NCBI RefSeq assembly: GCF_002216775.1
Contig: NZ_CP022315.1
Coordinates: forward strand, 62,001 to 126,000
Length of the DNA: 64,000 nt
Reading direction: 5' to 3'
DNA from: Virgibacillus phasianinus
GTDB lineage: Bacteria > Bacillota > Bacilli > Bacillales > Amphibacillaceae
The translations under genes and the position numbers were made by a program. This document shows, piece after piece, positions 12,181 to 59,728 of the stretch. The notes under the pieces are model-generated. The model did not search any database and was not told the DNA's origin. It saw nothing but the letters and a program-made list of their open reading frames with translations. Numbering within the stretch: position 1 is the stretch's first letter; every line of letters begins with the position of its first letter.

Positions 12181-12627
12181 CGCTGCGGGTAGTCGCTTTC
12201 CGCGGGCGGCTGGTGAGCCTCCTTGTGCTTGTCGTGTTACAAGTAAATTCAGTGTCGCTGCACTCCTCGCAGAAAAATTGCTGTCGCACAAGGTCACTGA
12301 AAAAGGTAAATAAAGTACTAAATATGTGGATCTATCATCGTATCTTGAATATACGTCGCTTTCCGCGGGCGAGTGACGAGCCTCCTTGCCCCGGCAAGGG
12401 GTAGCCGACGTTGCCCGCAAAGGGCGGTTTTAGTCGGGCTTCATTAACTGCCGTCCTCCGGGGTCTCGCCGATCTCTCACTTCCCGCAGGAGTCTCCGTA
12501 TATTCAAGATGCTAGGTAAAGGTGAAAAGCTAAATTTGTAAAATCCACCACTTTTTCAGTGGCCTTCTGACGTCCTCCGGGGTCTCACCTATGCCTATCA
12601 ATACCGAAGGAGTCGACTACCCGCAGC
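12181..12627. repeat. Palindromic element with CGCTGCGGGTAGTCG arms, interrupted by a 220-type element
   Basis: The left arm GCTGCGGGTAGTCG (12183-12196) is the exact complement of the right arm CGACTACCCGCAGC (12614-12627). Between them are an extra TTGTGC...GCACAAG hairpin module (about 12221-12290) and a complete TIR element (12291-12567). A second fragment of this arm family is to the right of the element at 59391. No coding potential beyond chance ORFs. Confidence 0.75.
12291..12567 (+). mobile_element. MITE-like palindromic element, copy A (277 bp)
   Basis: The ends AAGGTCACTGAAAAAG and the inverse of CTTTTTCAGTGGCCTTC form terminal inverted repeats. Inside, TATCTTGAATATAC (12344) pairs with GTATATTCAAGATG (12499). 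Compared with the 220-bp copies at 29772 and 48135 it contains an extra module of about 57 bases (CCCCGGCAAGGGGTAGCCG and following, about 12379-12445). It has no ORF of note. No clean target duplication is visible because it is inserted in another palindrome. Confidence 0.8.
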
Positions 12628-27536: not shown

Positions 27537-27654
27537 CGCTACGGAAAAACACTGCGCTTTCCGTGGGCAGCTGATGAGCCTCCTCGAGCTTTCGCTCTCC
27601 GGGGTCTCATCTAGGCTTCTGCTCCCACAGGAGTCTCCGTGTTTTTCCTCCGCT
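27537..27654 (+). repeat. Palindromic element with CGGAAAAACAC arms, copy 1 (intact)
   Basis: Left arm CGGAAAAACAC (27542) pairs with right arm GTGTTTTTCCTCCGC (27639-27653). The core reads GCTTTCCGTGGGCAGC and CCCACAGGAGTCTCCG, with a loop CTCGAGCTTTCGCTC. This intact copy shows the state of the element into which copy D (48135) has inserted. Non-coding. Confidence 0.75.
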
Positions 27655-27714: not shown

Positions 27715-28175
27715 GACCGTTGGCTCCCTGCTTAGAACAGCACAGGCTGAAGACCCCGCGGATTGGGTTTAAGGGCACTGAAAAAGTGGTGGATTTTAAA
27801 AATATAGCTTTTCACCTTTACTTAGCATCTTGAATATACGGAGACTCCTCGAAAAAGAAAAGCACTTTTTCTTCGTGCGATGCCTTTCGGAGGAGCTTTC
27901 CTTGTCCTGCGGGAAGTGAGAGATTGGCGAGACCCCGCAGGACGGCAGTTAATGAAGCCCGACTAAAACCGCCCTTTGCGGTCAACATCGGCTACCCCTT
28001 GCCGGGGCAAGGAGGCTCGTCACTCGCCCTAAGGTGCGCGCAGTATATTCAAGATGCGATGATAGATCCACCTATTTGTGTATTAACGTTACCTTTTTCA
28101 GTGCCCTCAGCGTAAGCTCGAGGAGGCCATGAAAGCGAGTGTTTTTTAGCAGCGGCAATCGAGGTGCCAAACATA
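27715..28175. repeat. Mosaic of palindromic elements around copy B
   Basis: On the left lies a half of the GGACCGTT element (GCTTAGAACAGC and GAAGACCCCGC, 27715-27770), in the middle the TIR element B (27771-28108), and on the right an inverted half of the CGGAAAAACAC element (AGCGTAAGCTCGAGG to AAAGCGAGTGTTTT, 28109-28160). The two flanks come from different families, so the site looks recombined rather than a simple insertion. No genes between 27326 and 28362. Confidence 0.7.
27771..28108 (-). mobile_element. MITE-like palindromic element, copy B (338 bp)
   Basis: The ends AAGGGCACTGAAAAAG and CTTTTTCAGTGCCCTC are the terminal inverted repeats. Inner arms CATCTTGAATATAC and GTATATTCAAGATG are intact. 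It carries two extra modules: one with AAAGCACTTTTTCTTCGTGC (27849-27913) and one with CCCTTGCCGGGGCAAGG (27952-28018). It has the same length as copy E at 59391, and lies in the opposite orientation. Confidence 0.85.
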
Positions 28176-29771: not shown

Positions 29772-29991
29772 GTGGCCACTGAAAAAGGTAAAGTATGGTA
29801 CAAAATAATGAATCCATCATCGCATCTTGAATATACTTCGCTTTCCGCGGGCGAGTGTCGAGTCTCCTCGGACTGCCGTCCTCCGGGGTCTCGCCGATCT
29901 CTTACTTCCCGCAGGAGTCTCCGTATATTCAAGATGCTAAGTAAAGGTGGAAAACTAAAGTTTAAAATCCACCACTTTTTCAGTGCTCTTC
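29772..29991 (+). mobile_element. MITE-like palindromic element, copy C (220 bp)
   Basis: The basic 220-bp form, with ends GTGGCCACTGAAAAAG and CTTTTTCAGTGCTCTTC. It is flanked by CCCATAGC on the left (29764-29771) and ACAATAGC on the right (29992-29999), a 6-of-8 match where a target duplication would be. It lies between the rodA-like gene and mgtE. Inner arms and the CTTTCCGCGGGCGAG core are intact. Confidence 0.85.
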
Positions 29992-34673: not shown

Positions 34674-34730
34674 AGTATGTACCACCTTTATCATCAAACC
34701 CTAGCTTCAGCCAATAATTATTAGAAAATC

Positions 34731-34770
34731 TTGGGTTATCGCCAATAACTAATGGCGAAAGTCTTAGGAA
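34731..34770 (+). ncRNA. H66 hairpin repeat, copy 2 (diverged)
   Basis: It keeps TTAGAAAATCTTGGGTTATC, GCCAATAACTAATGGCGAAA and GTCTTAGG. The stem is retained although the bases in the GGGTT/AGTCT part differ from copy 1, and the T-tract is degraded. It lies in the divergent gap between relQ and the CYTH gene. Confidence 0.6.
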
Positions 34771-34887
34771 TTTTAACTTAAGTCCTTTAAATCTTATCAT
34801 AACACAATTTAATGGATAATCTTTGCAAAAACATCGCTGATTAGCGATAATCAATGGTAATCCTACCTAAAATTATGGAGGTAAACA

Positions 34888-47708: not shown

Positions 47709-47937
47709 GTTGTTAATCTCCTCCCTATATAAATGATAGTTATGAACAATTAGATGGCTAGGTTGCGTGATAAATAATCAAAACGATTAGGCAATTTCTG
47801 TCGCATCCCTTTTCATATTCCCTATGTTTAATTAAATATAATTTTAGGTGTTTACTTCTAAATGTCAAGATAGCTTTCTAAATTATTCAACTATTATTAA
47901 AGGCTGTCAACTAGGATTCATTTCCGCGAAAAAGCAA

Positions 47938-47985
47938 AGGGGCTGGGACAAAACTAAAATGTCCAACTCAAAAAACGAACGATCA
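47938..47985 (+). repeat. Partial GGCTGGGACAAAA-type repeat
   Basis: GGGGCTGGGACAAAACTAAA at 47939 matches the 5' part of the repeats at 48700 and 59234 but lacks the hairpin. It borders the large palindromic mosaic that follows. Confidence 0.55.
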
Positions 47986-48078
47986 AGGGGTAGGAAGTTT
48001 AGAATGTTTCTTTCCAACAATCGGATCTTAATAAGCAGTTGACATAAACTACTATCATGTTCGGTGCCTTGTCACCGC

Positions 48079-48420
48079 TGCGGAAAAACACTGCGCTTTC
48101 AGTGGCAGCTGATGAGCCTTCTCGAGCTTACGCTGAGGCCACTGAAAAAGGTAAATGTAGTACAAAATAGGTGGATCTCTGATCGCATCTTGAATATACT
48201 GCGCTTTCCGCGGGCGAGTGACGAGTCTCCTCGGACTGACGTCCTCCGGGGTCTCGTCGATCTCTCACTTCCCGCAGGAGTCTCCGTATATTCAAGATGC
48301 TAAGTTAAGGTGAATAGCTAAATTTATCAAATCCACCACTTTTTCAGTGCCTTCCTTACGCTCTCCCGGGGTCTCATCGAGGCTTCTGCTCCCACAGGAG
48401 TCTCCGTGTTTTTCCTCCGC
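48079..48420 (+). repeat. Palindromic element with CGGAAAAACAC arms, copy 2, split by element D
   Basis: Left arm CGGAAAAACAC (48080) and right arm GTGTTTTTCCTCCGC (48406-48420) are those of the intact copy at 27537. Copy D (48135-48354) lies in the loop, flanked by the duplicated CTTACGCT. This is the cleanest evidence that the 220-bp element moves. Confidence 0.85.
48135..48354 (+). mobile_element. MITE-like palindromic element, copy D (220 bp) with exact 8-bp target duplication
   Basis: The ends are GAGGCCACTGAAAAAG and the inverse of GAAGGCACTGAAAAAG. CTTACGCT occurs at 48127-48134 and again at 48355-48362. Inner arms CATCTTGAATATAC and GTATATTCAAGATG pair, and the core CTTTCCGCGGGCGAG pairs loosely with CTCACTTCCCGCAGGAG. 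No ORF for a transposase, so it would depend on an enzyme made elsewhere. Confidence 0.9.
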
Positions 48421-48484
48421 TAATATGTCATTAGACAAAACAGTATTATATAGTAAGTCCACTATTACGTGATGTCTTACGCTC

Positions 48485-48655
48485 CGGACCGTTGACTCCT
48501 GCTTAGAACAGCGCGAGCTGAAGACCCCGCAGAGTGGTTAAATAATGAAGGCCGACTAAAACCGCCCTTTGCGGGCAACGTCGGCATACCCCTTGCCGGG
48601 GCAAGGAGGCTGAAGCCGTGCCCTAAGGTGCGCAACGGTCCGAAGCGGAAAACAA
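48485..48655 (+). repeat. Palindromic element with GGACCGTT/AACGGTCC arms, copy 2, with extra module
   Basis: GGACCGTTGACTCCTGCTTA at 48486 and GCAACGGTCCGAAGCGGAAA at 48632 are the arms. The module with ACCGCCCTTTGCGGGCAACG and CCCCTTGCCGGGGCAAGG (48546-48613) is the same as in copies A, B and E of the TIR element, so it has been exchanged between families. Confidence 0.75.
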
Positions 48656-48699
48656 TCTAGCGCATACTTTTTAGCTTTAAGTTTACAAAAACAGACAAG

Positions 48700-48790
48700 A
48701 AAAAATCCGAACTACTTCAAATTCTAATCAAAGAATTGAATCATAGTTCGGATTTCTCTCTGGCTAAAACACTTTTGTCCCAGCCTCTTG
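48700..48790 (-). repeat. GGCTGGGACAAAAG-type repeat downstream of the 3D-domain gene
   Basis: On minus it reads GAGGCTGGGACAAAAGTGTT, then AGCCAGAGAGAAATCCGAAC, then a hairpin that ends TAGTTCGGATTTTTTC. It has the orientation of a terminator for the minus-strand gene that ends at 48843. It is nearly the same as the copy at 59234. Confidence 0.8.
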
Positions 48791-50334: not shown

Positions 50335-51602
<1,268 letters not shown>

Positions 51603-59390: not shown

Positions 59391-59728
59391 GAGGGCACTG
59401 AAAAAGGTATAGTTAATATACAAATATGTGGATCTATCGTCGCATCTTGAATATACTGCGCTTTCCGCGGGCGAGTGCCGAGCCTCCTTGCCCCGGCAAG
59501 GGGTAGCCGACGTTGCCCGCAAAGGGCGGTTTTAGTCGGGCTTCATTAACTGCCGTCCTCCGGGGTCTCGCCGATCTCTCACTTCCCGCAGGACAAGGAA
59601 AGCTCCTCCGAATAGGCATCGCACGAAGAAAAAGTGCTTTTCTTTTTCGAGGAGTCTCCGTATATTCAAGATGCTAAGTGAAGGTGAAAAGTTAAAAGTT
59701 AAAATCCACCACTTTTTCAGTGCCCTTC
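59391..59728 (+). mobile_element. MITE-like palindromic element, copy E (338 bp)
   Basis: Ends GAGGGCACTGAAAAAG and CTTTTTCAGTGCCCTTC. It has the same two extra modules as copy B (CCCCGGCAAGGGGTAGCCG part 59482-59547 and AAAGTGCTTTTCTTTTTCG part 59591-59660) and the same length. The left flank CTCGAGCTTACGCT is that of the CGGAAAAACAC element, while the right flank belongs to the GCGGGTAGTCG family, so the site is recombined. Confidence 0.85.

Follow-up and report, generated by a model that had tools for sequence, protein, structure and literature searches.

The stretch of Virgibacillus phasianinus DNA analysed here (the window, 64,000 nucleotides) corresponds to positions 62001-126000 of genome G000, a single contig of 4,071,214 bases. 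On its forward strand, a palindrome is split by a second palindromic sequence, copy D, and the locus raises the question of what moved D there and how its place of insertion was chosen. The reading that we favor, to which we give a probability of roughly 0.92, is that D is a non-autonomous element (MITE) of a subgroup of the IS1182 family with GAGGCCACTGAAAAAG ends. This reading is carried by the ends that the MITE has in common with full IS, by duplications of 8 to 10 bp in both, by the location of the duplication in a loop, both for the full IS and for D, and by one empty site of an IS.

Copy D is 220 bp long (48135..48354, + strand). Direct reading shows that it starts with GAGGCCACTGAAAAAG at 48135 and ends with CTTTTTCAGTGCCTTC at 48354, and that its 16-bp terminal inverted repeats are imperfect, with 14 of 16 bases alike between GAGGCCACTGAAAAAG and GAAGGCACTGAAAAAG. 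An exact copy of CTTACGCT stands on its left (48127..48134, +) and on its right (48355..48362, +), and this 8-bp sequence is the hairpin loop of the host palindrome GCGGAAAAACAC...GTGTTTTTCCTCCGC (48080..48420, +), which closes round D as CTCGAG...CTCCCGGGGTCTC. The element described by an earlier sequence-only reading, with inverted ends and an exact 8-bp duplication in a palindrome loop, is therefore what direct reading returns. The longest reading frame that overlaps D has 79 aa and starts outside it, so that D holds no transposase gene. Folded as single-stranded DNA, D gives a z of −7.1, and none of 200 shuffles folded as well.

An exact search of G000 with GGSCACTGAAAAAG gave 75 matches, and its reversed control gave none. 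The stretches round these end matches and round the matches of another search, 257,524 bases including the window, contain 52 pairs of facing ends. One of these (1505235-1505559) is the outer frame of a nested copy and was left out, giving 51 copies. Measured between the GG bases, they fall into classes of about 216 bp (n = 25), 274 bp (n = 11), and 333 bp (n = 15), and, compared by eye, the two larger classes consist of the small one with added modules of about 58 bases. Besides C and D, end pairing and inspection of the flanks revealed three further copies in the window: a 274-class copy with no clear duplication (12290..12566, +), a 333-class copy whose flanks resemble two different targets and which is probably recombined (27771..28108, −), and a 333-class copy at the CTTACGCT loop whose right duplication has decayed (59391..59727, +). 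Copy C (29772..29990, +) begins where it had been placed before and its flanks match at 6 of 8 bases as then read, but it measures 219 bp and not 220. Because these flanks match at only 7/9 when taken as 9-bp repeats, C was kept out of the duplication-bearing copies.

A 70-base query from the right arm of the MITE found a match in 4 of 159 genomes of the family, spanning 63 to 70 bases in G000, G001, and G024 and 32 bases (E 7.7e-4) in G163. D-family arms are present in two species besides that of the window, those of G001 and G024. Among named genomes, in a search that may omit near genomes, the right-arm pattern was found in only one record, a Chromatiales MAG, and a plasmid search returned no match to the MITE itself. 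End pairs were obtained at 27 of 30 loci in G001 (L216, L219, and L233 were dropped) and at 10 of 10 in G024. Element ends were set 2 bases outside the GG, and a direct repeat of 8 to 10 bp with at most one mismatch was counted as a duplication. Duplications so defined are present at 65 of the 88 copies from the three species (35/51 in G000, 23/27 in G001, and 7/10 in G024), at 60 unlike targets, and are absent at 23. For the null, each left flank was combined with the right flank of a different copy, except where the two copies have identical left flanks. This yielded 119 such repeats in 3270 mismatched pairs; G000, in which a single target is common to many copies, accounts for 109 of the 119. 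Exact duplications were found in 37/88 copies versus 42/3270 pairs in the null. Two copies in G001 (L213 and L214) are 99.5% alike and occupy unlike sites with different 9-bp duplications, which suggests that movement of the MITE there has been recent.

Full elements with the same ends were found outside these three genomes. The GARGSCACTGAAAAAG ends occur in 23 of 81 genomes, that of the window included; since the reversed control matches once in each of 5 of the 81, single matches may be due to chance. In several genomes the ends flank a transposase gene. The four transposases scanned between such ends all match NCBIfam NF033551 (IS1182) at 356 to 385 bits, for a cut-off of 270, and all four also match PF05598 (DUF772) and PF13751 (DDE_Tnp_1_6). 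IS whose ends are identical or almost identical are carried by plasmids of Metabacillus sp. B2-18, Peptoclostridium acidaminophilum, and Priestia megaterium, and the ends of a plasmid IS of Enterococcus avium are more diverged. The transposase of the Priestia megaterium plasmid IS is WP_207371796.1. Among phages, the transposase matches 15 records, all of them below 60% identity. The full IS with the same 16-bp ends for which a search had been proposed is accordingly found in other genera, and judged by these ends, the IS1182-family IS with GAGGCCACTGAAAAAG ends is the probable mobilizer of the MITE. D resembles this family in that its 16-bp ends are those of full IS whose transposases score above the family cut-off, and differs from it in having no transposase; the subgroup duplicates a target of 8 to 10 bp, which is usually a loop. 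By eye, no match between the arms of the MITE and the full IS was seen beyond about 16 bp.

Short elements with GAGGCCACTGAAAAAG-type ends and different interiors are also found in other genera. All nine that were examined (the set includes L139 and L131) have duplications of 8 to 10 bp with 0 or 1 mismatch, seven of them exact, when the ends are floated by up to 2 bases, versus 2/72 with exchanged flanks. One 315-bp element with MITE-type ends (L149, in G023) retains the last part of an IS1182 transposase gene (27 residues, 63%, E 5e-7) and is a candidate for a half-way stage from IS to MITE. The family of D is short and lacks a transposase gene, has terminal inverted repeats, duplicates its target, and has its ends in common with an autonomous element. 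The protein-less MITE-type element moved by transposition that was first proposed is upheld by the duplications in 65/88 copies and by ends that are those of an IS1182-type IS.

The landing sites of the full IS were analysed in a set of 55 loci that comprises full or partial IS of the subgroup and its nearest relatives. Fifty have an end pair (L271, L274, L300, L301, and L163 do not), and removal of two duplicates of a single locus (L267 and L164) left 48 distinct loci, not all of them independent, as several copies can come from one genome and L264 and L296 have common flanks. Duplications of 8 to 10 bp are present at 45 of these 48, and 43 are exact. Because scoring the ends together with the duplication could favor duplications, the ends were also chosen blind to the flanks; the outcome was again 45/48, with 43 exact, and exchanged right flanks gave 14/2256. 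The 10 bases on each side of the duplication form on average 7.6 of 10 pairs, versus 5.2 with exchanged flanks (register free by 2), and this mean was matched or exceeded in 0 of 20,000 permutations. Stems of at least 8 pairs occur at 24/45 targets versus 7.5% in the null. In a folding test, at least 6 pairs enclose the duplication at 33/45 targets versus 749/1980 in a null that is itself high. For the full IS, there is thus good support for a preference of this subgroup for hairpin loops. An A-run before the stem and a T-run after it, which give the look of an intrinsic terminator, are found at 19/45 targets, a modest increase over the 12.8 expected if the two were independent. Palindromes of the type CCTCCT...GGGGTCTC, which also receive the MITE, make up 12/45 IS targets by eye and 13 by motif search, one of the 13 being a terminator of Priestia.

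This Priestia site provides an empty target. In three Priestia megaterium plasmids, a terminator-like hairpin downstream of spxA reads AAAAAGGAGA..-GTAAAAAC-CCTTCTCCTTTT, with a single GTAAAAAC as its loop. In NZ_CP071473, the IS lies between two copies of GTAAAAAC, and one base differs in the right arm; the hairpin is wholly kept after the insertion, with its loop doubled. Among the matches listed, 20 records have both flanks in two pieces, and of the four that were examined three are the empty hairpin, while the fourth (L309) has no hairpin.

In passages of two papers (PMC5678879 and PMC4923244), IS1272/TnSha1 of Staphylococcus, which belong to the IS1182 family, are described as targeting stem-loops, some of them confirmed terminators, and IS1272 as removing the stem-loop wholly or partly and leaving no duplication; the same passages mention, citing Siguier 2015, that some IS1182 members target palindromes. 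The transposase family is the same as that of the GAGGCCACTGAAAAAG-ended IS. The result of insertion differs, since the hairpin is deleted by IS1272, whereas in the GAGGCCACTGAAAAAG-ended IS the stem is kept and the loop is doubled. Replacement of the stem-loop as in IS1272 does not fit the duplications at 45/48 IS loci or the Priestia hairpin that was kept whole. Wan et al. drew loop duplication as no more than a possible pathway c, and among titles and opening lines of abstracts in the open-access literature we recognized no description of loop-duplicating IS1182 elements or of an IS1182 MITE. We regard loop doubling as a second landing mode of the IS1182 family, beside the hairpin deletion of IS1272.

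In the same analysis, the hairpin preference is much weaker for the copies of the MITE than for the full IS. Over the 65 targets, stems have a mean of 5.26 pairs versus 4.88 (301/20,000 permutations), and at least 8 pairs are found at 3/65, below the 7% seen in the null. When only the 20 targets that lie outside palindromic repeats are taken, the mean is 5.7 versus 4.29 (1/20,000 permutations). Folding of the targets gave at least 8 enclosing pairs at 25/60, a moderate excess over the 22% of a cross-joined null and the 13% obtained for positions drawn at random from the window. The null is high and the stems are interrupted because many targets are the same imperfect palindromes. The CTTACGCT-type loop accounts for 17/65 MITE duplications, 15 in G000 and 2 in G024. 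Our interpretation is that one loop of an abundant repeat is a hot target and that there is, in addition, a general taste for hairpin loops, the latter resting mainly on the full IS.

Whether the transposase recognizes the hairpin as such is a question on which two readings compete. What it prefers may be a duplex sequence, a symmetric site in double-stranded DNA, or terminator DNA that is bent or AT-rich, so that loops are hit as the centers of dyads. The recurrent CTTACGCT-type loop among the MITE duplications, the small stem excess over all 65 MITE targets, and the CCTGTCC and CCGTCC sites that recur in the IS set fit this account. Across the 45 IS targets, on the other hand, stems are retained although the sequences of the loops vary widely, and we hold recognition of the duplex to be a tentative explanation, although one to be taken seriously. 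That the subgroup reads the structure of the DNA and not the sequence of the duplex is the alternative toward which we lean slightly.

Empty sites were found for the host palindrome of D as well. An uninterrupted relative lies in the window at 27541..27652 (+), as identified by site search; the sequence-only reading had pointed to an intact form at about this place, and the relative is there, but its loop is CTTTCGCT and not CTTACGCT. Allowing up to 4 mismatches, the fetched parts of G000 contain 13 uninterrupted host palindromes, and 10 of the 13 read exactly CTCGAGCTTACGCTCTCCGGGG, although one of the 10 passes into the MITE as a chimera and some of them share their flanks. With 10 uninterrupted palindromes that carry the exact CTTACGCT loop, paralogous empty sites therefore exist. 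No orthologous empty site for D was found: in G001, the neighboring gene is conserved and the adjoining sequence differs, and a different MITE copy lies there, in a AACCTGTCC site. Positions 34690-34791 of the window are the orthologue of a place of insertion in G001 and lack the MITE; because the hairpin is not conserved there either, they form a weak empty site. The proposed check for empty sites turned up paralogous sites in G000 and, for the full IS, the Priestia site, but no orthologous one for D. The opposite outcome, random flanks and no empty sites, did not occur, given these sites and the 65/88 duplications.

D also splits the CGGAAAAACAC palindrome as first described, but this palindrome is no free element here and sits inside an element of 855 bp (47936..48790, +) with the ends AAAGGGGCTGGGACA and CAAGAGGCTGGGACA, which resemble the ends of a second IS1182 IS in G000. 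The flanks of this outer element, AAAAAGC and CTTTTTTT, have the look of a terminator stem. The order of events that had been read from the nested insertion stands, with the outer 855-bp element arriving first and D second. The fetched sequence contains ten outer-type end pairs of 423 to 1018 bp, that at 47936-48790 among them. Eight of the ten enclose an end-paired MITE of the D family, a fraction that is biased because the sample was drawn round such MITEs. The MITE also enters itself: at 1505233-1505674 of G000 (L062), one copy lies in the core loop of another, with the duplication CTGCCGTC. D matches 55 of 81 genomes, its own included, at E <= 0.001, and among the matches listed mostly by its core only. 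The core palindrome spans about positions 59-158 of the query and is matched in many relatives. The MITE thus contains the same type of palindrome as those that it enters.

The outer element contains a match to Rfam RF01690 (Bacillaceae-1) at 48540..48602 (+), with 36.4 bits versus a gathering score of 35. The extra module of the 274- and 333-class MITEs matches the same model below the gathering score (23.8 to 29.6 bits, E 0.017 to 0.37) at all four loci scanned (L078, L079, L084, and L089). With 150 of 495 candidates scored, G000 has five RF01690 matches at E <= 0.001, two of them over the gathering score. Bacillaceae-1 is among the candidate RNAs in the portion consulted of PMC2864571. Judged by these positions, Bacillaceae-1 sequences in G000 appear to travel inside mobile palindromes. 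Elsewhere in the window, a T-box leader is found at 50355-50536 (Rfam RF00230, 103 bits).

No transposase with the ends of the MITE was found in G000, G001, or G024. G000 has seven PF13751 matches, none of them bounded by these ends: six are copies of another IS1182 IS (1842 bp; L152-L156 and L158), with ends like AAAGAGGCTGGGACA, and one is a distant, apparently frame-shifted copy. They were rejected as the source of D, as their ends differ. G001 has a single PF13751 transposase, between GAGGCTGGGACA ends, and no PF13751 transposase was found in G024. The mobilizer had been said to be absent from the window, and the search of G000 as a whole brought up no transposase bounded by the ends of the MITE; because of this, the transposase for D is likely to have come from elsewhere or to have been lost. 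The six 1842-bp copies are the IS that matches the outer element, and no 8- to 9-bp duplication was evident by eye in their flanks, in which they are like IS1272. G000 holds in this way a second IS1182-type system, made up of six full IS and of elements of 423 to 1018 bp with similar ends, with no evident target duplication.

The transposase of this outer family, with the AAAGAGGCTGGGACA ends of the six IS in G000 and the GAGGCTGGGACA ends of the one in G001, could itself move D in trans. In both G000 and G001, it is the sole IS1182-type transposase found intact, and the two G001 copies at different sites that are 99.5% alike make movement there seem recent. We consider this unlikely, as its ends differ from those of the MITE, its six copies show no evident duplication of 8 to 9 bp by eye, and G024 has MITE copies, yet no PF13751 transposase was found there.

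The copies might also have spread by recombination and gene conversion between palindromes, without any transposition. Inspected by eye, 15 unpaired ends in G000 either are joined to other palindromic repeats as chimeras or belong to copies in which one end has decayed; none of the 15 is an IS, and they were rejected as a mobilizer IS. At L041, L042, L043, L045, L049, and L055, the sequence starts as the MITE and continues as another sequence, often another palindromic repeat, and these chimeras are likely to have arisen by recombination in the shared core. Two copies at distant places in G000 (1363272-1363488 and 1912086-1912302) have the same sequence and the same adjacent flanks, as a duplicated segment or gene conversion would probably leave them. 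The chimeras in which the sequence departs from the element within its core and runs into another repeat, the copy at 27771-28108 and others with flanks like two targets, and the identical pair at 1363272 and 1912086 all fit such an account, which is nevertheless very improbable for the family in view of target duplications in 65/88 copies at 60 unlike targets. D is short, palindromic, and present in many copies, but a REP-like nature, with movement by a Y1 (IS200/IS605-type) transposase, has almost no probability, since it is already contradicted by the duplications of 8 to 10 bp and by ends in common with a DDE-type IS; REP and IS200/IS605 insertions are not known to have target duplications.

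For the MITE of the IS1182 subgroup, the following course of insertion may be proposed. An IS1182 transposase acting in trans would have bound the 16-bp ends and cut the element out or copied it. The 3' ends of the element would then have been joined to two strands about 8 to 9 bp apart, at both edges of a hairpin loop, and gap repair would have doubled the loop. At D, this loop would be the CTTACGCT of the palindrome inside the older 855-bp element. In a wider form of this proposal, a branch of IS1182 recognizes hairpins, terminators included, by their structure and cuts at both edges of the loop, for which reason the 8- to 9-bp duplication would be the loop itself. The palindromic core of the MITE would be its own landing pad and would build nests of mobile hairpins, and it may have spread the Bacillaceae-1 'RNA' as a passenger. 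The arguments for and against this wider form seem to us evenly balanced.

Bacterial MITEs are described in a review (PMC10969869) as short, protein-less elements with inverted repeats, duplications, and many copies, all of which are traits of the D family. The difference is that the core of D is itself a palindrome of the kind into which the element inserts. The main text of that review does not contain the term 'IS1182'. The REP/TnpA-REP systems are likewise palindromic repeats in many copies, and the D family differs from them in its target duplications and in having its ends in common with a DDE-type IS. Insertion of IS elements into REPs is reported in PMC1525189.

The finding ties an orphan palindromic repeat to its probable mobilizer. 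Comparison of loop doubling with hairpin deletion would make the way in which a DDE transposase reads a hairpin directly testable. It also raises the question of whether Bacillaceae-1 is a free-standing small RNA gene, and it may account for some of the nested palindromic repeats in these genomes.
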